From the IMG/VR virus record IMGVR_UViG_3300025769_000270, positions 1 to 41,210 of that record: 41,210 nt of DNA. One strand, written 5' to 3'. A model generated the notes under the pieces. It worked only from the letters and a program-made list of their open reading frames with translations, searched no databases and was not told where the DNA came from. Position numbers and translations under genes: made by a program. The stretch is from a virus. This document shows positions 21,151 through 41,210 of the stretch, piece by piece (within the stretch, counting starts at the first letter, position 1; each line of letters starts with the position of its first letter).

Positions 21151-23153
21151 CAGTAGGTCGTCTCTCCGATGCCGCCCTGGGGCATGGCTTGGGGCGTTTG
21201 GCCCGTAGCCAGGGCAGCGAGCATGTTGTTGTCCACCTCGCCGGGGCCAGCGCCCACGCCGGGGATGATGCCGCCCATGGAGGCGGGGTTGATGACCTCT
21301 TGGCGGCGCGCTGCGTACATGCGGTGCATGTCGAGGGCTTGGCGCAGGGCCATAAGCTCGAACTCGTCGGCGTTCCGGGCCACTGCCGCCTCCTGCATCT
21401 TGGCGTAGTAGGCGACGTACATGTCGTGCTGGTCGTCCTCGAAGACCATGATCGGCTCCTGCGTTTGCAGGAAGCGGATGTACCGCTCTTCGGGGCCGAG
21501 TTCGATGGTGGGAGCGTCGAGGAAGATGTCGGCGTCCTCGATGCCCATGGCGTTGCCGAGGCGGCGCAGAGCTTCGCGCGTCATGCGGGGGATGCCGCCT
21601 TGGAATGCCTGTTGTGCGTTGGTCGTGACGGTCAGCCACTGCATCAGAGCCTGGATATCGCCCGCATTGGACAGGTGGCCAAGCTCAACGGGGTCTACGT
21701 CGAAGCTGAAGCACGCAACCATGGGGTCGGGGACCCGGATGGTGCGGATGACGCCGTTGTCGAGGGGGATATCGACCGTCTTGCCGAAGATCTGGCGCTG
21801 ATACTTGAAGCCGATCTGCGCGATCTTGGTCCACATGGCCGCCATGATCTCCAGGCGGTCGGCGTTGCGCTTGGATGCCGCGTCGGTGATCGCTGCGGCC
21901 TCGGTTGCGCTCTTGCGAGGGTTGCTCGGGATGCCCCGATCGCTCGGCGAGACGCCCGTGACGTCGTCGAAGAGCCGCATGTAGGTCTGGAGCGCGCCGA
22001 GGTACTCGTTGAGCACGGTGCTTTGCTCAACCGGGCGCATCGTGGCGTTGACGCCGCGCGTGTTGTCGTCGGCATCGACGCCGATGAACACGGTTCCGCC
22101 GGGAACGACGCTGCGGACGGCCTGGATGGCGTCGTCTTGGATCGCGTTCTTGTCGTAGAGGATCGTGTTGTTGCTGGTGCGGACCTCGCGGTCGATTTGC
22201 ACGAGCGTTTGCACGATCATCCGCATGAGCGGGATCCACGAGAGCACCTCGGCGGCGGGAACGTCCTCGCTCGGGGCGGGATCGAGGAAGTTGCCGATGA
22301 CCAGCGGGCACTCGGGGAGCGTCTCCGTGCAAACGTAGGTGCCGACCGGGTTCTCAACGTCCTCGGTCAGGTTGATCTCGGTGAGCGAGGGGTCCTTGTG
22401 GCGGTTGCGGGCCACGAAGATCGACATGGGGCAGCCCTTGCCCTTGGTGCCGTGGGCAAAGCCTTCGTGGTAGCACTCGGTGACGCGGACGATCTCCCAG
22501 GGGTGGGGCGCTTCCTGGCCGGAGACGTCGGGTTTCCAGTGCTCGGGCAGGTCGCCCCACTGCATGTCGTAGCCGTGCCAGTAGAAGCGGCGGTGGAACG
22601 GCTCGTAGCCGCAGTCGCGTGCCTCGACGGCGCAATACTTGACGCGGTTGTAGGCGACCTTCTCGCTCTTGTCGTAGGTGACCTTGACGCCGAAGTAGGG
22701 CGAGACGAGGCCAATGAACGCGGCGCGGCGCATGGCGGCCCGGAGGTCGCCGTGGTCGGTCATGATCCGCGTCAGGCGGTTCTGGTCGTCCGCGAGGTGG
22801 GCAGCGCCGGGGACCCGGGCCTTGGCGCGGAAGGACGGCACGCCCGGCGTCAGGTTGGCGACGATCTGGCGGATGCGCGAAAGGAACAGGTTGGCCGTGG
22901 TCTCGGGCGGGCGCCACGAGTACGTGGCCAGCGCGTCAGGGATAACGTGAGCCGGGATGCCCTGTTCGCCGATGATGAGGCTGGCTGCTCCGCCGAGGGG
23001 GTCGCGGCCCGTGTAGATGTCCGCGATGAGGCGCTCGTTGCCTGTGAGCGGCTCGTGCAAGGCGTCGGCGGACTCTTGCAGGAGGGCGGCGAGCGCCATG
23101 GAGGCGTGCTCGTCGAGCTTGTAGGGCTTACCAGTTTGGCCTGTTGTTTCCAT
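21150..23153 (-). CDS. portal protein
   Basis: 667 aa, close to podophage portals such as P22 gp1 (725 aa). Recognisable features are the N-terminal helices (ASMALAALLQESADALHEPL), the mixed wing/stem region with VLSWIPLMRMIVQTLVQIDREV, then GIPSNPRKSATEAAAITDAASKR. A long C-terminal helical crown follows, with a Gly/Pro/Gln-rich tail (MGGIIPGVGAGPGEV). It lies between TerL (26-nt overlap) and the zinc-ribbon gene, the standard packaging order. It forms the dodecameric DNA entry ring and binds the adaptor. Assignment rests on order plus general composition. Confidence 0.75.
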   Translation of the reverse strand: METTGQTGKPYKLDEHASMALAALLQESADALHEPLTGNERLIADIYTGRDPLGGAASLIIGEQGIPAHVIPDALATYSWRPPETTANLFLSRIRQIVANLTPGVPSFRAKARVPGAAHLADDQNRLTRIMTDHGDLRAAMRRAAFIGLVSPYFGVKVTYDKSEKVAYNRVKYCAVEARDCGYEPFHRRFYWHGYDMQWGDLPEHWKPDVSGQEAPHPWEIVRVTECYHEGFAHGTKGKGCPMSIFVARNRHKDPSLTEINLTEDVENPVGTYVCTETLPECPLVIGNFLDPAPSEDVPAAEVLSWIPLMRMIVQTLVQIDREVRTSNNTILYDKNAIQDDAIQAVRSVVPGGTVFIGVDADDNTRGVNATMRPVEQSTVLNEYLGALQTYMRLFDDVTGVSPSDRGIPSNPRKSATEAAAITDAASKRNADRLEIMAAMWTKIAQIGFKYQRQIFGKTVDIPLDNGVIRTIRVPDPMVACFSFDVDPVELGHLSNAGDIQALMQWLTVTTNAQQAFQGGIPRMTREALRRLGNAMGIEDADIFLDAPTIELGPEERYIRFLQTQEPIMVFEDDQHDMYVAYYAKMQEAAVARNADEFELMALRQALDMHRMYAARRQEVINPASMGGIIPGVGAGPGEVDNNMLAALATGQTPQAMPQGGIGETTY

Positions 23154-24768
23154 GTGCGCTGGTGGTCCAGACCTTCAGGGAGTCACGGTTCGGGTTGGGT
23201 CCTCGTTCAACGCCGGGGAGGTCACCGCGCCGCTCGACCATCGTGGAGAGGAGGGCAAGGGCGGAGATGAGGTCGTCGGAGTTGGAGAGCGGGTACTCGA
23301 TGAGGCGCTGAACGAGGATTTCCCTACCGGGGAAGTCGTTAGGGAAAATCAGGTAGCCCTTACGCATTGCGGTCTGCAATGACATAAGGCGGAAGGCCAA
23401 GGAGGCGGAGCCGATTTTCTGTCCACGGATCTTGACGCCTTTGATTTTACCACGTTCTTCCAGCCAAGGCGCGAACAGAGATTGGGACGCGACCTTCTCG
23501 ATCCAGATGGACTTGAGATGCTTCTTGTGGGCGGGGACGCCGACGTCTTCGATCCAGCACGCGGCTGCGTCGGCGCCGCCTGGGATCTCCAGGGCGCGGA
23601 CAGGGATGAAGATGTTCCGGTCGGGGGCGAAGCCCTTGAGGCCAAGCTTGTGGGCGGGCAGGACGCGCACGACGACGATGCCGTTGAGGTCTCCGGTGGT
23701 GCCGTCGATGCGGGCGACGGGGTCGTACAGGAGGATCTCAGGGCCGTCTGGGAGGCGCTTGAGCGTGAGGTCAGGGTCGGTGGCGGCCTCGACCAGTTCG
23801 GGCTCGAAGATGGCCTCCTCGGCGGGCACAGGCTCGCAGAGGTACTGGGCGGAGAAGAAGGTGCGGCTCAGGGCGTCCTGCTTCTCGATGATCTCGTCGG
23901 CGGTCAGGAAGGAAGGGCAAAGCGCGTAGGCGCCGTTGGGGCCGGGGCCTTTCTTGTCGGCGCGCTTGTTGACCGGGTTGACGCCGTCCCAGACGCCGAA
24001 GCGGAACTGTGCCCAATCTTCGCGGCGGGACAGGAAGCTGGTGACGTCTTGGAAAGCCCAAGGGGTGCCGATGTGGTTGATCGGCGAATCGGGCGAGTAC
24101 ATCAGAGGTTCAAGGGCTTCGATGAAGTCGATGACCTTCTGGCGGCGTGTAAACGTCCGAGAGTTCTGCTCGTTGGCCGGGTCGTCGATGACGGCGCGGG
24201 TGGGGTGGTTACCGGCGAGGTTCGACTCGACTGAGGCGGCGAATACGGAAGGCTCACGGCCTTTGCCGGCGCGTCCGTTGATGTTGAACTGGTCAGCGGG
24301 GCCGGACTTGCGGACGTCGCCCTGGAGGGCAAGCCAGGGGAACGCCTCGCGGACGGGCATGTAGAGGCCGGGCAGGATCTCCAGGTCGCCGTTGAGGCGG
24401 TCACGGATCTCCCCCACCAGCTTGCGGGCAAGGTCCAGGGTGGCGCAGGCGATGAGGTTGCGGGACTCGGGGTGGCGCAGCAGGTGGTGGCAGGTGTCGA
24501 TGACCGTAATCATCGTGGACTTGGCGTGGCCACGGGGGACGATCGTCGAGGTCTTGGGCTGGCTGTGAACGTGCTCCAGCATCCGGCGATGGAAGGAGCC
24601 GAACTGCTTCCGGTTCGAGTTCGGCTCGCCCTTGTAGCCGAGTGCAACACCGAAGGCGATGGGGTCGCTCCAGATGTTGTAGATCGCGTCCCGGATTTGC
24701 TCCGGGGTGTAGTCTGTGGCTAAAACCAACGTGCCGTTTAGTATCGGGCAAGGCCCGGGCGAGTGCAA
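23128..24768 (-). CDS. terL: terminase large subunit (packaging ATPase-nuclease)
   Basis: 546 aa in the longest frame. The ATPase has Walker A-type PRGHAKST at residues 78-85 (the RGHAKS variant seen in phage terminases) and Walker B VIDD at 193-196, with a coupling NEQNSRT stretch just after. The nuclease domain shows LLYDPVARIDG then TGDLNGIVVVRV (first acidic site) and SNSDDLISALALL near the C-terminus (last acidic site). A GTPWAFQD motif follows the ATPase core. It cuts and pumps DNA into proheads through the portal. The longest frame opens with TTG 24768; no ATG is present before residue 63 and no clean ribosome site is visible, so a TTG at about residue 14 is equally possible. Confidence 0.85.
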   Translation of the reverse strand: MHSPGPCPILNGTLVLATDYTPEQIRDAIYNIWSDPIAFGVALGYKGEPNSNRKQFGSFHRRMLEHVHSQPKTSTIVPRGHAKSTMITVIDTCHHLLRHPESRNLIACATLDLARKLVGEIRDRLNGDLEILPGLYMPVREAFPWLALQGDVRKSGPADQFNINGRAGKGREPSVFAASVESNLAGNHPTRAVIDDPANEQNSRTFTRRQKVIDFIEALEPLMYSPDSPINHIGTPWAFQDVTSFLSRREDWAQFRFGVWDGVNPVNKRADKKGPGPNGAYALCPSFLTADEIIEKQDALSRTFFSAQYLCEPVPAEEAIFEPELVEAATDPDLTLKRLPDGPEILLYDPVARIDGTTGDLNGIVVVRVLPAHKLGLKGFAPDRNIFIPVRALEIPGGADAAACWIEDVGVPAHKKHLKSIWIEKVASQSLFAPWLEERGKIKGVKIRGQKIGSASLAFRLMSLQTAMRKGYLIFPNDFPGREILVQRLIEYPLSNSDDLISALALLSTMVERRGDLPGVERGPNPNRDSLKVWTTSAHGNNRPNW

Positions 24769-24865: not shown

Positions 24866-25474
24866 TCACTTGCGCCAGTAGGCCGGGACGACGCTGCCGG
24901 TCTTCTCGGCGTAGACGTCGGCGAACGCCTCGCGGGCGCGCTCGCATCGCTTCCACCATGCCGCGCCGGTGATCCCTTCCGGCGCGCCGAGTCCGGCGAG
25001 CAGGCGGCTCACCGTGTCACGGAGCAGTTCCGGGAGAGCTGCCACCGTGACTGCCACCGCCTCGCGAACGTCCGCGTCTTCCATCGGAGAGTAGGTCGGC
25101 TCGACGTCTTCCGGGGCGACGTCGCGGGCGGTGTGCTTCTCGCCGCTCCGCCTCCCCGTGACGGCGAGCATGCTGCTGCTCTCCGCCTGCTTCTGCCGGT
25201 GCGTCGCGGCAGTGATGATGCGCCGCCGCGTCTCTGCGGTGGGCGCATGCCGGAACGCCACCGGGGGCAGTTCCAGGCACTTGTCGCCGATCCCATCGAG
25301 CGCGGTGGACTCATCCACCCACGCGGGCAGGGGGAGCGCGGTGGCTCCATCCCTGCGGGCTTCGCCGCGCGCCTTCCCGGTGGCCCGGTGGGCGGCAGCG
25401 TTGCCGGTGGCCACCTCGATGAGGTGCGGCCAAGACTCGATGGGGGCGAACGTGTTGCTGTTGCTGTTGGACAT
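24866..25474 (-). CDS. first gene of the late operon: sigma-region-4-like or small-terminase candidate
   Basis: 202 aa from ATG 25474. I chose this start over the longer frame to 25588 because the leader and first codons (MSNSNSN) are copied in inverted form at the divergent PC4-like gene. Residues about 130-186 (SPMEDADVREAV, then ALPELLRDTVSRLLAG, then AAWWKRCERAREAF) resemble the end of a sigma-70-family protein: an acidic linker, an LP-x-x-x-R helix and a final RARE-x-F helix. However, sigma region 2 is not evident. The position directly before terL also suits a small terminase subunit. It has basic/Ala-rich low-complexity N-terminal sequence. Either role would involve DNA binding. I hold the two possibilities as about equal. 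Confidence 0.4.
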   Translation of the reverse strand: MSNSNSNTFAPIESWPHLIEVATGNAAAHRATGKARGEARRDGATALPLPAWVDESTALDGIGDKCLELPPVAFRHAPTAETRRRIITAATHRQKQAESSSMLAVTGRRSGEKHTARDVAPEDVEPTYSPMEDADVREAVAVTVAALPELLRDTVSRLLAGLGAPEGITGAAWWKRCERAREAFADVYAEKTGSVVPAYWRK

Positions 25475-25490
25475 GTTGTCTCTGCTGTTG
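25459..25490 (-). repeat. left copy of 32-nt inverted start-region duplication
   Basis: 32 nt, exactly repeated in reverse orientation at 25802-25833. Each copy holds 16 nt of leader (CAACAGCAGAGACAAC) and 16 nt of coding sequence beginning ATGTCCAACAG, so the two divergent genes share ribosome-binding region and first five codons (MSNSN). Confidence 0.95.
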
Positions 25491-25586
25491 CTGTTGCTGA
25501 TGCGGGCCGGAGCACTTCGCCCCGGAACCCCCGTATCAGACACGTTCGGCATCCGGGCGTCAACACTGAAGTTCGATCCCGGATCC

Positions 25587-25643
25587 ACCTACCTTCCGCC
25601 GGGGCGGCACCGGCCTGACACCGCAGTCCGAGATTCCGGGGCC
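25587..25643 (-). repeat. left arm of 57-nt imperfect inverted repeat
   Basis: Reverse complement of 25685-25741 at 47 of 57 positions. The mismatches are clustered in two short blocks. Three blocks are perfectly kept: GGCCCCGGAATCTC, CGGTGTCAGGCCG and CCCGGCGGAAGGTAGGT. Conserved blocks with free spacers of equal length look like protein-contact elements rather than a recent copy. Confidence 0.9.
25590..25620 (-). promoter_or_regulatory. candidate phage promoter element, copy 1 (late operon)
   Basis: Read on the minus strand: TGTCAGG (25620-25614), 10 nt, CCCGGCGGAA (25603-25594), one base, GTA (25592-25590). The same element with the same spacing occurs at 25708 and 27608 on the plus strand. 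It points to the late operon whose first ATG is 115 nt downstream. No ordinary -35/-10 sigma-70 pair is visible. Confidence 0.55.
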
Positions 25644-25684
25644 GATGGCCGCAAGTGCCGCCGGGGCAAGGGTTTGAGTCCGGC

Positions 25685-25741
25685 GGCCCCGGAATCTCGC
25701 CGGACGGTGTCAGGCCGCCCCGGTCCCGGCGGAAGGTAGGT
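25685..25741 (+). repeat. right arm of 57-nt imperfect inverted repeat
   Basis: Partner of 25587-25643 (47 of 57 identical after reverse complement). It faces the PC4-like gene. Conserved blocks and the spaced promoter-like element are as in the left arm. Confidence 0.9.
25708..25738 (+). promoter_or_regulatory. candidate phage promoter element, copy 2 (early arm)
   Basis: TGTCAGG (25708-25714), 10 nt, CCCGGCGGAA (25725-25734), one base, GTA (25736-25738), located 79 nt before the ATG of the PC4-like gene. Followed by CGGTCC-GC-GG-G-type sequence that is also found after copy 3. Confidence 0.6.
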
Positions 25742-25801
25742 GTTCCCGGTCCGCCGGGGACGACGCTCCGGCAGTCCGCCGGGGCGGGCAACAGCCACCC
25801 A

Positions 25802-25833
25802 CAACAGCAGAGACAACATGTCCAACAGCAACA
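25802..25833 (+). repeat. right copy of 32-nt inverted start-region duplication
   Basis: Exact inverted partner of 25459-25490, covering the leader and first codons of the PC4-like gene. The purine stretch in GCAGAGAC is the likely ribosome-binding site and fixes the start at 25818. Confidence 0.95.
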
Positions 25834-26123
25834 CGGGCGGCACTGCCGCCGGACTCCAGTCCTTCTCGAAGGCCGAACTGATCGCCATGATGGAGGCCAA
25901 GCTGGTCGAGGACGCCGAGCGCGAGCGATTGGCCGGAGTCACCATCGAGCGTGAAGCCGGTGTATCGAAGGCCGGTAAACCGTTCGACGTTCTCCAGATC
26001 AAGGGAGGCGAGTTCGGATGGCGCGGAATGAACCTCAAGCCCGCTATGTGGCGACGCTTGAAGTCCCTCATTCCCGACATCGACGCGGCAATGTCGAAGC
26101 ACTACCCTAGCGAAACCCTGTAG
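25818..26123 (+). CDS. PC4-like single-stranded-DNA-binding protein
   Basis: 101 aa. Residues about 54-96 match the PC4/p15 coactivator core: a beta segment KPFDVLQIKGGEF, then WRGMNLKPAMWRRLKSLIPDI ending DIDAAMSK. The KG-x-x-L-x-P-x-x-W-x-x-L-K pattern and the final DID-A helix are the PC4 signature. The N-terminal 50 residues are charged and helical (KAELIAMMEAKLVEDAERE). PC4 folds bind ssDNA or open promoter complexes as dimers; here it could act in early transcription or replication. It is the first gene of the rightward arm, has its own promoter-like element and is closed by a strong terminator. The duplicated MSNSN start fixes ATG 25818 over the longer frame from 25740. Confidence 0.75.
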   Translation: MSNSNTGGTAAGLQSFSKAELIAMMEAKLVEDAERERLAGVTIEREAGVSKAGKPFDVLQIKGGEFGWRGMNLKPAMWRRLKSLIPDIDAAMSKHYPSETL

Positions 26124-26126
26124 TGC

Positions 26127-26168
26127 AAAGCCCCCAGTAGCCCTCACGGGTTGCTGGGGGCTTTTTTT
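26127..26168 (+). terminator. strong rho-independent terminator after the PC4-like gene
   Basis: AAAGCCCCCAG (26127-26137) pairs with CTGGGGGCTTT (26154-26164); an inner GCCC/GGG pair extends it. A run of seven T follows (26162-26168). It would uncouple the PC4-like gene from the genes downstream. Confidence 0.9.
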
Positions 26169-26229
26169 GTGGTTACTCAGCGTGAAGCGTTTCACGCGAA
26201 GCCGTGAATCAGCTCTCAACGGAGATGAA
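26169..26229 (+). promoter_or_regulatory. leader cassette copy 1 (hairpin plus 16-mer)
   Basis: After the terminator come GTGGTTACTC, a hairpin CGTGAA/TTCACG (26181-26196), then GAAGCCGTGAATCAGC (26198-26213) and CTCAACGGAGATGAA before ATG. The 16-mer is identical in copy 2 at 26508-26523, while the hairpin arms differ in a compensating way. It may be a structured leader, operator or restart promoter. Confidence 0.6.
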
Positions 26230-26436
26230 ATGAGTGAACAAATGCGCCGTGCAATGTGTGCGGACATCAACAACCAACTCGACTACATGGAAGTCACCCT
26301 GGATGGGTGCGATTGGTGTTGTGGAGGTGGAGACGAGCTTCGCGCTAGCCTACTGAGCAAGCTCAGGCAGCTAGGTGGAGAGCGCAAGCGGTGGCACCTA
26401 CTGTTCACTGCTGACCCCAGTGACACCAACTGGTGA
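26230..26436 (+). CDS. small unknown protein
   Basis: 68 aa from ATG 26230 with GGAG 9 nt upstream. Acidic/neutral helical start (MSEQMRRAMCADINNQLDYM), a Cys-Cys pair in CDWCCGGGDEL, and a basic middle (LRQLGGERKRWH). Four cysteines in total (C10, C28, C31, C32 by count) could bind metal, but the spacing does not match a family I know. It is a one-gene unit enclosed by two terminators. Longer frame from 26167 was rejected because it reads through the leader hairpin. Confidence 0.6.
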   Translation: MSEQMRRAMCADINNQLDYMEVTLDGCDWCCGGGDELRASLLSKLRQLGGERKRWHLLFTADPSDTNW

Positions 26437-26441
26437 GCAAT

Positions 26442-26477
26442 AGCCCTGCGGTTCAAACGAGCCGCAGGGCTTTTTTT
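26442..26477 (+). terminator. second strong rho-independent terminator
   Basis: AGCCCTGCGG (26442-26451) pairs perfectly with CCGCAGGGCT (26462-26471) around a 10-nt loop and is followed by seven T. Confidence 0.9.
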
Positions 26478-26539
26478 GTAGCTACTGTGAGAAACAGCTT
26501 CTCACGGGAAGCCGTGAATCAGCATCAACAGGAGACCAC
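26478..26539 (+). promoter_or_regulatory. leader cassette copy 2 (hairpin plus 16-mer)
   Basis: GTAGCTACT, then hairpin GTGAGAA/TTCTCAC (26487-26505), then the same GAAGCCGTGAATCAGC (26508-26523), then ATCAACAGGAGACCAC before ATG. CAACAGGAGAC-YACATG is also the ribosome site of the gene at 27680. Confidence 0.6.
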
Positions 26540-26689
26540 ATGCTAGTGAACATTCTTCTTGGCATCGGTGCAGTGTGCATGGCTGTTGTCGGCGCCTGGG
26601 TCATCGTGCAAGCGATTACACCCATCGACGGCGTCAACGAGCCTGGACTGTACCGCAAGCTCAAAGACAAGGAGGGCAAGCGTAAGTGA
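26540..26689 (+). CDS. 49-aa small membrane protein
   Basis: ATG 26540, with AGGAGA 7 nt upstream. One membrane helix at residues about 3-27 (VNILLGIGAVCMAVVGAWVI), followed by a short soluble tail that is strongly basic at the end (KDKEGKRK). N-terminus outside or buried, C-terminus in the cytoplasm by the positive-inside rule. It overlaps the next gene by 4 nt (GTGA). Function unknown; small single-helix proteins in early phage operons often modify host membrane functions. Confidence 0.65.
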   Translation: MLVNILLGIGAVCMAVVGAWVIVQAITPIDGVNEPGLYRKLKDKEGKRK

Positions 26690-26913
26690 GCGAGCCCATT
26701 ACTGAAGGCGAGGCGCTACGGCGCGCACTCGTACCGTTCCCCGATGCATACATTGGGGAGGACAGCGAGGGGCAACTGGTGATTTACACCGGGCTGTACC
26801 CCACAGGCACAGTGGTCATCACTGAGCGTGTCTATGGTCCTGAGCCCAAGATCATCGAGCTTGCTCCTGACTGGCGCTTTAGCAATGGGGCCAAGGGCGA
26901 CGAGGAGTGCTGA
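26686..26913 (+). CDS. small acidic unknown protein
   Basis: 75 aa from GTG 26686, which overlaps the preceding stop, with GGAGGGCAAG as ribosome site. Beta-rich and acidic (DAYIGEDSEGQLVIYTG; GTVVITERVYGPEPKIIEL). Ends CNGAKGDEEC-like with a terminal Cys. No family recognised. Coupled both to the membrane protein before it and to the 31-aa zinc-ribbon peptide after it. Confidence 0.6.
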   Translation: MSEPITEGEALRRALVPFPDAYIGEDSEGQLVIYTGLYPTGTVVITERVYGPEPKIIELAPDWRFSNGAKGDEEC

Positions 26914-27008
26914 TGAGTATTAGGTGCAAACACTGCGACAGCCGCGTTCCCTACTGGGACAGCGTGCAAGGGTCCTGCTACTCGTGTCACGAGGAGTACG
27001 AAGCATGA
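26913..27008 (+). CDS. 31-aa zinc-ribbon microprotein
   Basis: ATG 26913 overlaps the stop of the preceding gene (TGATG), and its own stop overlaps the next ATG. The peptide has two CxxC pairs, C5-K-H-C8 and C22-Y-S-C25, enough for a complete zinc ribbon in 31 residues. The start and stop overlaps on both sides and the two paired motifs support that it is translated. Function unknown. Confidence 0.6.
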   Translation: MSIRCKHCDSRVPYWDSVQGSCYSCHEEYEA

Positions 27009-27277
27009 GGTACATCAACGTGTACCTAGTGGAGCAAGCCTACGGTGGTCCCGAGGAGGGCGGATGGTGGTACGACTACGGCGTGCCGCATGCGTCCATC
27101 CCAGAGACATGCCCCAATGGCCTAGAGCACACGCTTGAGCAATGGCAAGCGTGGTGCAAGATCGAAAACGGTGCGCGCCCCGACTACTGCTCGGTTCACA
27201 GTCAAGGCGAGTACTGTGTCTCCGTTGAAAATGAGCCCGCAAGGGCTTGGCCGTCTGAGCGTCCCTTTTACGAGTGA
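27005..27277 (+). CDS. small unknown protein
   Basis: 90 aa from ATG 27005, overlapping the microprotein stop (ATGA). The reading frame to 26924 is longer, but that part is a shadow of the upstream two genes. Aromatic and acidic (YLVEQAYGGPEEGGWWYDYG), with four Cys/His-rich places (CPNGLEH, WCKIE, DYCSVHSQGEYC). A metal site is possible but no family is recognised. Last gene before the structured gap at 27278. Confidence 0.6.
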   Translation: MRYINVYLVEQAYGGPEEGGWWYDYGVPHASIPETCPNGLEHTLEQWQAWCKIENGARPDYCSVHSQGEYCVSVENEPARAWPSERPFYE

Positions 27278-27607
27278 CGACCTGTTAGGGCAGGTGCGGC
27301 AAAGATCTTAGGCCCTAAGCGTCCTGTCCGGTGGAGCAGCACCGGGCAGGGGTGATGCGTTAGCTCTTGCGGAGTCCAAGGGAGGAATACCTTGGGCGTT
27401 TGCCGGGCGGTGCGATAGTTCCCTCCGATGCGATCATCGCTGCTTGAAGGCCATGGACTTCATCCCAGCTTTCCCTCCATCGTGCAACAACTCCCTCCAC
27501 CTGTCCCATCATGTGCAAGGGCAAGCGAAGTGCTGTCGTCCGTCCCCACCGGGTTAGCTGCTCGGATTCCTGGGGGCGGACGGCGGTGCGCTTTTTCCGC
27601 CGGTCGA
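27278..27607 (+). other. structured non-coding stretch on the plus strand
   Basis: Three hairpins follow in 71 nt: ACCTG/CAGGT (27280-27295), a perfect CTTAGG-C-CCTAAG palindrome (27307-27319) and an 11-bp stem CCTGTCCGGTG/CACCGGGCAGG with one G-T pair (27323-27350). No T-run follows, so this is not a simple terminator. Further on, CGTCCGTCCCC (about 27538) can pair imperfectly with GGGGGCGGACG (about 27574), followed by CTTTTT. The minus strand holds a possible ORF (27360-27668). Confidence 0.5.
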
Positions 27608-27668
27608 TGTCAGGATCGCCCGCTCCCGGCGGAACGTACACGGTCCAGCGGAGTGCTGGATCGAACAA
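27360..27668 (-). CDS. possible antisense ribbon-helix-helix-like protein
   Basis: 102-codon frame opposite the leader of the replication arm. Residues about 43-82 look like an RHH fold: strand RTTALRLP, helix QVEGVVARW, turn RES, helix WDEVHGLQAAMIASEG. The plus strand here encodes nothing sensible. Against it: the start would be TTG 27668 or GTG 27641, without a clear ribosome site, and the promoter-like element at 27608 lies inside its 5' part. If real, it would be the only leftward gene in the rightward arm and a natural repressor candidate. Confidence 0.35.
   Translation of the reverse strand: MFDPALRWTVYVPPGAGDPDIDRRKKRTAVRPQESEQLTRWGRTTALRLPLHMMGQVEGVVARWRESWDEVHGLQAAMIASEGTIAPPGKRPRYSSLGLRKS
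27608..27638 (+). promoter_or_regulatory. candidate phage promoter element, copy 3 (replication genes)
   Basis: TGTCAGG (27608-27614), 10 nt, CCCGGCGGAA (27625-27634), one base, GTA (27636-27638). Spacing is identical to the two hub copies, and the flanking CGGTCC-x-GCGG also matches copy 2. The ATG of the first gene is 41 nt downstream. It also forms a hairpin with TTCCGCCGG at 27595. Confidence 0.6.
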
Positions 27669-27679
27669 CAGGAGACTAC

Positions 27680-28033
27680 ATGAGACAAATCACTCGGGAC
27701 GCGGCCATCGCGTTCACCTGGGACCGCAACTTCAAGCGGGCAAACACCGAGGTCAGGGTTAGTCCTGGTGGTACGCAACTGCTGTTGCACGGCAACATCA
27801 TTGCGGCTCGGTTCAAGGGTGGCACCCAGCGTGTTATGTACACCATGGCTGGCTGGGGTACGCCTACGACGCGACAGCGTCTAAACGGACTGCTTCAGTA
27901 CCTGGGACACACCAATACTTGTGTGTATCAGGACAGGCATGAGCAGTTCGTCTGGCATGAGGGCAAGGACTATCCCATTGCTCCCGATGCCGACTGGTAC
28001 ATCAACAGCAACAACGAACTGGAGGTCCTGTGA
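27680..28033 (+). CDS. unknown protein, first gene after promoter copy 3
   Basis: 117 aa from ATG 27680 with AGGAGA 7 nt upstream; the longer frame from 27428 crosses the promoter region and is discarded. Alternating strands and charged turns (AFTWDRNFKRANTEVRVSPG; LLLHGNIIAARFKGG), then QRLNGLLQYLGHTNTCVYQD and an acidic end. One GTTTAGAC-type octamer (27879) encodes R-L-N. Related small proteins occur in early phage regions, but I cannot name a family. Stop overlaps the GTG of the next gene. Confidence 0.6.
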   Translation: MRQITRDAAIAFTWDRNFKRANTEVRVSPGGTQLLLHGNIIAARFKGGTQRVMYTMAGWGTPTTRQRLNGLLQYLGHTNTCVYQDRHEQFVWHEGKDYPIAPDADWYINSNNELEVL

Positions 28034-40899: not shown

Positions 40900-41210
40900 C
40901 TGGGATTGTCTTACTGAACATAAGAAGAGCGGCCAGGGTCGCGTCGTTTTCGTGTGAGGTCACGCCTTGGTCAGCCGTGATGGACTTCACGACCGCCTTG
41001 ACCTCGCTCTTCTTCGGGATGAACTTGCGGTTCCACTCCTTGTTGACCGCTCGACACACCGCCTTCTTCAAGGACAGGGGGGACGCGTGTCTAAACGGGA
41101 TGTTCCTAGCGTGGGACCAAGCGACGATAATCGACGAGACCGCCCACAGGAATGCGGTGGTCTTGATCTGCCCCATGATAAACGGCGGCGTCTCACTCGC
41201 AACCGCCTCG
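40892..41210 (-). CDS. ruvC: RuvC-like resolvase (C-terminal part, runs off the right edge)
   Basis: Same frame as the gene at 1-465, completed across the contig junction. Includes HENDATLAALLMF, the C-terminal H-x-x-D part of the RuvC active site, and ends TIPDV with TAA at 40892. A basic middle (LSLKKAVCRAVNKEWNRKF) would bind DNA. The stop overlaps the ParB-like start by 8 nt. Full length after joining is 169 aa. This is the same gene as the left-edge entry, not a second copy. Confidence 0.85.
   Translation of the reverse strand, partial: EAVASETPPFIMGQIKTTAFLWAVSSIIVAWSHARNIPFRHASPLSLKKAVCRAVNKEWNRKFIPKKSEVKAVVKSITADQGVTSHENDATLAALLMFSKTIPDV
40937..41210. repeat. right copy of imperfect terminal repeat
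   Basis: Ungapped match to 1-274 at 267 of 274 positions; see the left copy. The differing bases are at 41015, 41108, 41126, 41129, 41141, 41149 and 41195. Confidence 0.95.

Follow-up and report, generated by a model that had tools for sequence, protein, structure and literature searches.

We analysed a complete virus genome of 41,210 bp, the IMG/VR record IMGVR_UViG_3300025769_000270 (positions 1 to 41,210; hereafter the window), in which a bipartite element, TGTCAGG-N10-CCCGGCGGAA-N-GTA, occurs exactly three times. The three copies, a, b and c, are probably promoters of the host core RNA polymerase associated with an extracytoplasmic function (ECF)-type sigma factor that the phage itself would encode, in a gene beside that of the large terminase (terL). 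The observations that carry this reading, which draws on sequence comparison and structure models, are the element and its placement, the concerted replacement of all three sites in a near relative, the sigma-like profile and fold matches of the candidate protein, and the absence of a T7-type RNA polymerase. The features concerned are the following:

25590-25620, minus strand: element a, TGTCAGG (putative -35), 16 nt, GGAAGGTA (putative -10); directed towards the sigma-like gene and the terminase/structural operon
25708-25738, plus strand: element b, divergent from a; faces the gene of a 101-amino-acid PC4-like protein and the early operon
27608-27638, plus strand: element c, the third copy; ahead of the ATG at 27680
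24866-25474, minus strand: candidate divergent ECF-type sigma factor of 202 amino acids; region 2 at about residues 15-106, flexible linker at 110-129, region 4 at 130-192

Results

Three copies of one element, each facing a gene

An earlier note on this DNA, made from its letters alone, had reported three copies of the element at these positions. They stand: the pattern still gives only three matches when up to three mismatches are allowed, it has no match in 100 dinucleotide shuffles, and 2e-7 copies are expected from base composition. The next best site of the genome, which lies within a gene, agrees in 15 of the 21 columns common to the three copies. Because the window is complete and terminally redundant (1-274 versus 40937-41210, 97.4% identical), this count is genome-wide. 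As had also been noted, the 10-nt spacers differ in sequence among a, b and c, and each copy faces a gene start, the start codons lying 115 nt (24866-25474, minus), 79 nt (25818-26123, plus) and 41 nt (27680, plus) beyond the ends of a, b and c, respectively. The proposed position of c ahead of the replication genes is correct too, in that the ATG at 27680 opens the run of genes leading towards them. Elements a and b are part of the two arms of an imperfect inverted repeat (76 nt, 78%; 25579-25654 and 25674-25749) and thus are not fully independent copies, while c, 1.9 kb away, is independent. Elsewhere in IMG/VR, the exact element is found only in another fragment of this virus, which is 99.9% identical.

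The element has the layout of a sigma-dependent promoter, in which two boxes lie about 15-18 nt apart: its boxes are separated by 16 nt, and its copies are located before genes and aligned with the direction of transcription. The impression that it does not resemble a sigma-70 promoter was confirmed, as the region 25300-27800 contains 0 sigma-70-type sites (TTGACA/TATAAT-like hexamers). Similarly, the phage RNA polymerase missing from the earlier analysis remains absent, since PF00940 was found neither in the complete window nor in its near-complete relatives. A promoter for a T7-like or N4-like RNA polymerase was considered and rejected: profiles revealed no polymerase, and the large virion proteins have no motif or solved relative that would indicate one. 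A more distant phage that shares the SprT gene, the L013 record (G004:8420-9538), does encode a T7-type RNA polymerase (E 2e-67), so the transcription strategy varies across the neighbourhood.

A near relative with all three sites changed

L151 (L151:6362-10980) is a 4.6-kb phage fragment bounded by 100-N gaps in a scaffolded Gemmatimonadota metagenome-assembled genome (CP070815.1), a location that is either a hint at the host or a scaffolding error. From terL to the SprT gene, its DNA is 82-90% identical to the window, and TerL is 94% identical over the residues compared. At all three equivalent places, L151 carries another element, GTGACCATC-N9-CGCGGAGATA (GTGACC-N15-GGAGATA), the flanks being kept while the three dispersed sites changed together. 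Such a concerted change implies one trans-acting, sequence-specific reader that differs between the phages. Only two L151 proteins are strongly changed, those corresponding to the 202-amino-acid protein (46% over the profile) and to the 101-amino-acid protein (about 30%), compared with 68-94% for the others; the two genes that change fastest next to the element include the 202-amino-acid gene. The earlier note had left open whether a sigma factor of the host or a factor of the phage reads the element; the concerted change of three sites between very close relatives now favours the latter.

The same layout in other letters

Relatives in IMG/VR were found using the large terminase as an anchor (TerL identity mostly 55-94%). 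The window element, searched with mismatches, has no match in these terminase relatives because the letters change between phages, and their own elements were recovered by a de novo inverted-repeat search in each record. Most of the relatives have a divergent pair of another element at the equivalent junction. Among the phages carrying the sigma-like gene, the pair is present in 11 of 13, and 10 of 13 score above all shuffles in a strict inverted-pair test; in L096, where the arms abut, it was detected by BLAST. The elements read GATGTCACAATCG-N6-TGCCGGGTCATA in L007, CTCACAATCCGGG..GCCCAGCAAAG in L098 and GATGTCACAAAACG..TCCGGTTGT in L100. Measured by eye, the gap between the conserved blocks is 16 nt in the window, 15 in L151, 17 in L007 and 16 in both L098 and L100, and it is 15-17 nt in most phages.

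Whole-record searches gave two to five copies per phage (only two in the near-complete G001) and none further in genes, save weak, chance-level matches in G002. A third copy before a downstream gene is also present in L009, L096 and L151. In all phages checked, each copy points towards a gene start and is aligned with the gene direction. Thus, the earlier expectation that the element would recur only upstream of genes holds in the whole genome and in the relatives, in letters that differ from one relative to the next. The mean element score is 23 within a phage versus 8.5 between phages, and c is closer to the b of its own phage than to any element of another phage (window, L151 and L096). In L117, a relative without the sigma-like gene, TATAAT boxes occupy both outward positions, one of them ending 11 nt before terL.

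Two further records were observed. L104 (L104:3803-5514) has at least five element copies and a sigma homolog (hidden Markov model E 4e-6) that, unlike in the others, lies on the strand opposite to terL. In L179 (L179:3143-3859), an AT-rich relative, arms ATTATAGACAAATTG-N8-CTATTGATA (29/34) accompany a gene in which one stretch resembles sigma region 2; this is the same design in yet other letters.

A candidate sigma factor beside the terminase gene

The product of 24866-25474 is most likely, judging by profiles and models, a divergent ECF-type sigma factor, and it is a strong candidate for the reader of a, b and c. The lack of a Pfam sigma region 4 match in the window caused its sigma-like nature to be missed at first. 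We initially took it for a small terminase, a reading dropped once a pattern resembling sigma region 4 appeared at the C-terminus of its homologs (LNPALREVAVMLRRGDDQPTIAKALELDGPTVRKRVERVRGKL in L009; homolog alignment). When the family was compared by hhalign with 11 ECF sigma factors taken from a single bacterial genome, that of L151, the profiles matched over 132 columns (Prob 95%, E 2.3e-8) with regions 2 to 4 in order, while two unrelated control pairs gave 0.2%. A PDB profile search with the family returned sigmaE, sigmaH and SigW, ranked behind translin, and Sigma70_r4_2 of Pfam was matched by 3 of 16 family members (best E 0.0015), the window protein not being among them.

The AlphaFold2 model of the protein (predicted local distance difference test, pLDDT, 77) has helices at 15-106 and 130-192 and is disordered at 110-129; a pair of helical domains connected by a flexible linker, with regions 1.1 and 3 missing, is the arrangement of ECF sigma factors. 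Each of the 50 matches listed by VIA-align was either a sigma factor or a complex that includes one (best Z 8.2, residues 13-195), and the first three PDB rows of Foldseek were sigma chains (E only 0.25-0.6), values in a range that helical models can reach by chance. Because VIA-align warns of such chance Z scores, the profile match carries more weight. In tblastn searches, neither the 202-amino-acid protein nor the portal matched any phage record. Among the terL-adjacent genes of relatives, that of L125 gave a strong profile match and that of L179 a partial one; those of L106, L110 and L111 look sigma-like by eye and have no profile match.

The junction and its neighbours

The a/b pair sits between the terminase operon (minus) and the early operon (plus). 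To its left, on the minus strand, are the 202-amino-acid gene, the large terminase (phrog_38), an SU10-type portal (PF23899, 33.1 bits, cut-off 30) and structural genes; to its right, on the plus strand, are the 101-amino-acid gene, small early genes, the SprT-like gene, and those for a primase-polymerase, a helicase and a DNA polymerase. The remaining features are:

25579-25749: imperfect inverted repeat holding a and b back to back; counterpart in most relatives
25649-25678: central dyad CCGCAAGTGCCGCCGGGGCAAGGGTTTGAG between a and b; its CCGNAAGTCC..GGCAAGGGNTTACG is conserved among phages with differing outer elements
23128-24768, minus strand: large terminase, first conserved gene downstream of the putative sigma gene
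25818-26123, plus strand: 101-amino-acid PC4/Sub1-like protein, first gene after b; weak but concordant matches
26127-26164, plus strand: predicted intrinsic terminator after the PC4-like gene, closing the first transcription unit from b
27680-28033, plus strand: gene faced by c (phrog_554 / Kyanoviridae Gp96-like), first of the run leading to the primase-polymerase, helicase and DNA polymerase

The central dyad could be an origin, a pac core or a cofactor site. A perfect 32-nt inverted repeat (25459-25490 and 25802-25833) takes in the ribosome-binding site and initial codons of each of the two divergent genes and suggests a recent inverted duplication or homogenisation of the arms. The leaders of two small genes (26186-26232 and 26496-26542), each directly after an intrinsic terminator, share GAAGCCGTGAATCA and a short hairpin, as do L007 (about 7181), L009 (about 1352) and L151 for the GAAGCCGTGAATCA leader, a possible processing or antitermination signal. 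The non-coding gap before c (27278-27600) is about 82% identical to L151 and has a strong GGUGGAGCAGCACC-type stem; a search for a structured RNA in it gave no Rfam match, and its overall folding is no better than that of shuffles.

The 101-amino-acid protein matches human PC4 by profile (E 0.003), and its model matches PC4/Sub1 weakly in VIA (Z 3.6-4.2); Foldseek returned no significant match for this model. These matches make it a possible single-stranded DNA-binding transcription cofactor, perhaps paired with the putative phage sigma factor.

Discussion

From these observations we infer a scheme in which the 202-amino-acid protein reads the sites and which extends to the boxes, the points where RNA starts, expression timing and co-evolution. 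Sigma region 4 would recognise TGTCAGG as the -35 box, and region 2 would recognise GGAANGTA, 16 nt beyond it, as the -10 box; transcripts would begin a few bases past the -10 box, near GGTG in a and b. Element a would drive the sigma gene itself together with the terminase/structural operon, forming an autogenous circuit, while b would drive the early operon beginning with the PC4-like gene and c would boost the replication genes. The first burst of sigma factor would have to come from another source. We could speculate that the PC4-like protein helps to melt the promoters. Among related phages, sigma factor and promoters would all have drifted together to new specificities.

Several points weigh against this scheme. 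It does not explain the source of the initial sigma factor. L151 is a fragment within a scaffolded assembly, and L103 and L123 carry the sigma-like gene with no clear pair in the inverted-pair test. The 202-amino-acid protein of the window has no useful match in Pfam or PHROGs, including no match to the Pfam sigma regions; its structural scores fall in the chance range given above, and the whole-molecule root-mean-square deviation of its model is large, as the domain orientation is not fixed. In addition, the PC4-like gene is also fast-evolving and adjacent to the element. Finally, the matrix correlation between element similarity and sigma similarity is significant with all 10 phages (r 0.78; 0.60 given TerL), but it is gone when L007, L009 and L087 are collapsed to one (n=8, r -0.1), because the elements outside this clade are too different to compare. 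Within the clade, the sigma proteins of L007 and L087 share 84% identity and their elements diverge in the -10 block, a difference that fits co-evolution, short of proof.

It is improbable, in our view, that the elements instead lie beside promoters of the host holoenzyme and serve as operators or activator sites for a different DNA-binding protein of the phage, which might be the PC4-like protein, a ribbon-helix-helix protein encoded at 32119-32343 or one that escaped notice. The PC4-like gene lies directly behind b and its product is about 30% identical between the window and L151, and half of the element is partly palindromic in some copies (CGATGTCACATCG in L009). However, there is no sigma-70-type promoter nearby, and the bipartite element lacks symmetry and has a sigma-like spacing of 15-17 nt. 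Moreover, PC4 similarity adds nothing to element similarity once sigma similarity is given (partial r 0.01), whereas sigma given PC4 retains 0.53, driven by one clade, and the PC4-like proteins of L007 and L087 are 95% identical while their proximal blocks differ (GGGTCATA versus GGGCCCTATG).

Less probable again, the gene beside terL could be a small terminase with a sigma-like helix-turn-helix, the elements being pac-type sites and the central dyad the cut site. The gene lies directly upstream of terL and diverges fast, no other small terminase was identified, and two arms around a conserved core recall the pac regions of headful phages. Nevertheless, the alignment of the protein runs through both sigma regions in order, beyond the helix-turn-helix alone, and c lies 1.9 kb off, without the core and 41 nt before a start codon. 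The five copies of L104 and the two of G001 also argue against packaging sites, which have no need to face genes.

We regard it as very unlikely that the elements are promoters of a host alternative sigma factor and that their differences reflect different hosts. A host ECF factor would suit the ECF-like architecture as well, but all three sites differ between the window and L151 despite 94% identity in TerL and 68-93% in the neighbours, and the relative without a phage sigma gene has TATAAT boxes instead. Replication initiator sites (origin iterons), to which the dyad symmetry and conserved core at the divergence point and the position of c ahead of the replication genes would lend themselves, are the least credible explanation, given the gene-facing orientation at short distances in every phage checked and the two to five dispersed copies in place of an iteron array.

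A phage-encoded sigma factor with its own promoters is of a kind already known from phages 7-11 and phiEco32 and from Xpf of PBSX. The bipartite promoters of phage 7-11, GTAAtg-(16)-aCTA, were mapped before late genes and are read by its own sigma factor, SaPh711_gp47, with a specificity unlike that of the related phiEco32 (PMC8948821). The window would share with 7-11 a phage-encoded sigma factor and a small number of bipartite promoters whose boxes are 16 nt apart. In contrast, 7-11 has been tested experimentally, its genome is about twice as large, its letters and sequence are unrelated, and its sigma gene is not described as terminase-adjacent or under a divergent autogenous pair. In phiEco32 and SU10 (Kuravirus), the sigma factor gp36 drives middle and late genes (PMC9965538, PMC8948821), and the phiEco32 promoter is tAATGTAtA (PMC8948821). 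Here the likeness would lie in a phage sigma factor and lies in the portal of the window, which matches the SU10 family (PF23899). However, phiEco32 uses a single-element promoter and a sigma factor without region 4, and Kuravirus-like genomes are roughly 75-90 kb with the sigma gene in the middle module, compared with a complete genome of 41.2 kb with the candidate gene beside terL. Kuravirus-like sigma factors are also conserved at about 95% within the group (PMC9965538), compared with 46% for the candidate here between phages with 94% TerL identity.

Xpf, the positive control factor of the prophage-like element PBSX (PMC10141391), is by description similar to the window candidate in being a prophage-linked ECF-type (group IV) factor with sigma2 and sigma4; it differs in belonging to a Bacillus prophage and in having no known diversified promoter set. 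Similarly, the late regulators RinA and Ltr of staphylococcal phages are encoded beside the terminase genes and switch on the packaging/structural operon, as the window gene would, but they are described as activators and are not sigma factors, Ltr acting via repeated binding sites that precede a putative sigma-A promoter (PMC13123087).

New here are the lineage, the location at the terminase junction and the speed with which a whole promoter set apparently switches between close relatives. We give about even chances to the idea that in this uncultured podovirus-like lineage concerted replacement of the sigma factor and all its promoters has been frequent enough to leave phages with 94% identical TerL without a shared promoter language. 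A self-similar divergent element beside the terminase gene could serve as a rule for finding hidden sigma factors, and such phages may supply small insulated sigma/promoter sets for synthetic biology. If the idea is true, the lineage would hold a natural series of mutually insulated sigma/promoter pairs, which would reveal how residues of region 2 and region 4 map to DNA boxes, and whose replacement might stem from conflict with co-infecting phages or with anti-sigma defences of the host.

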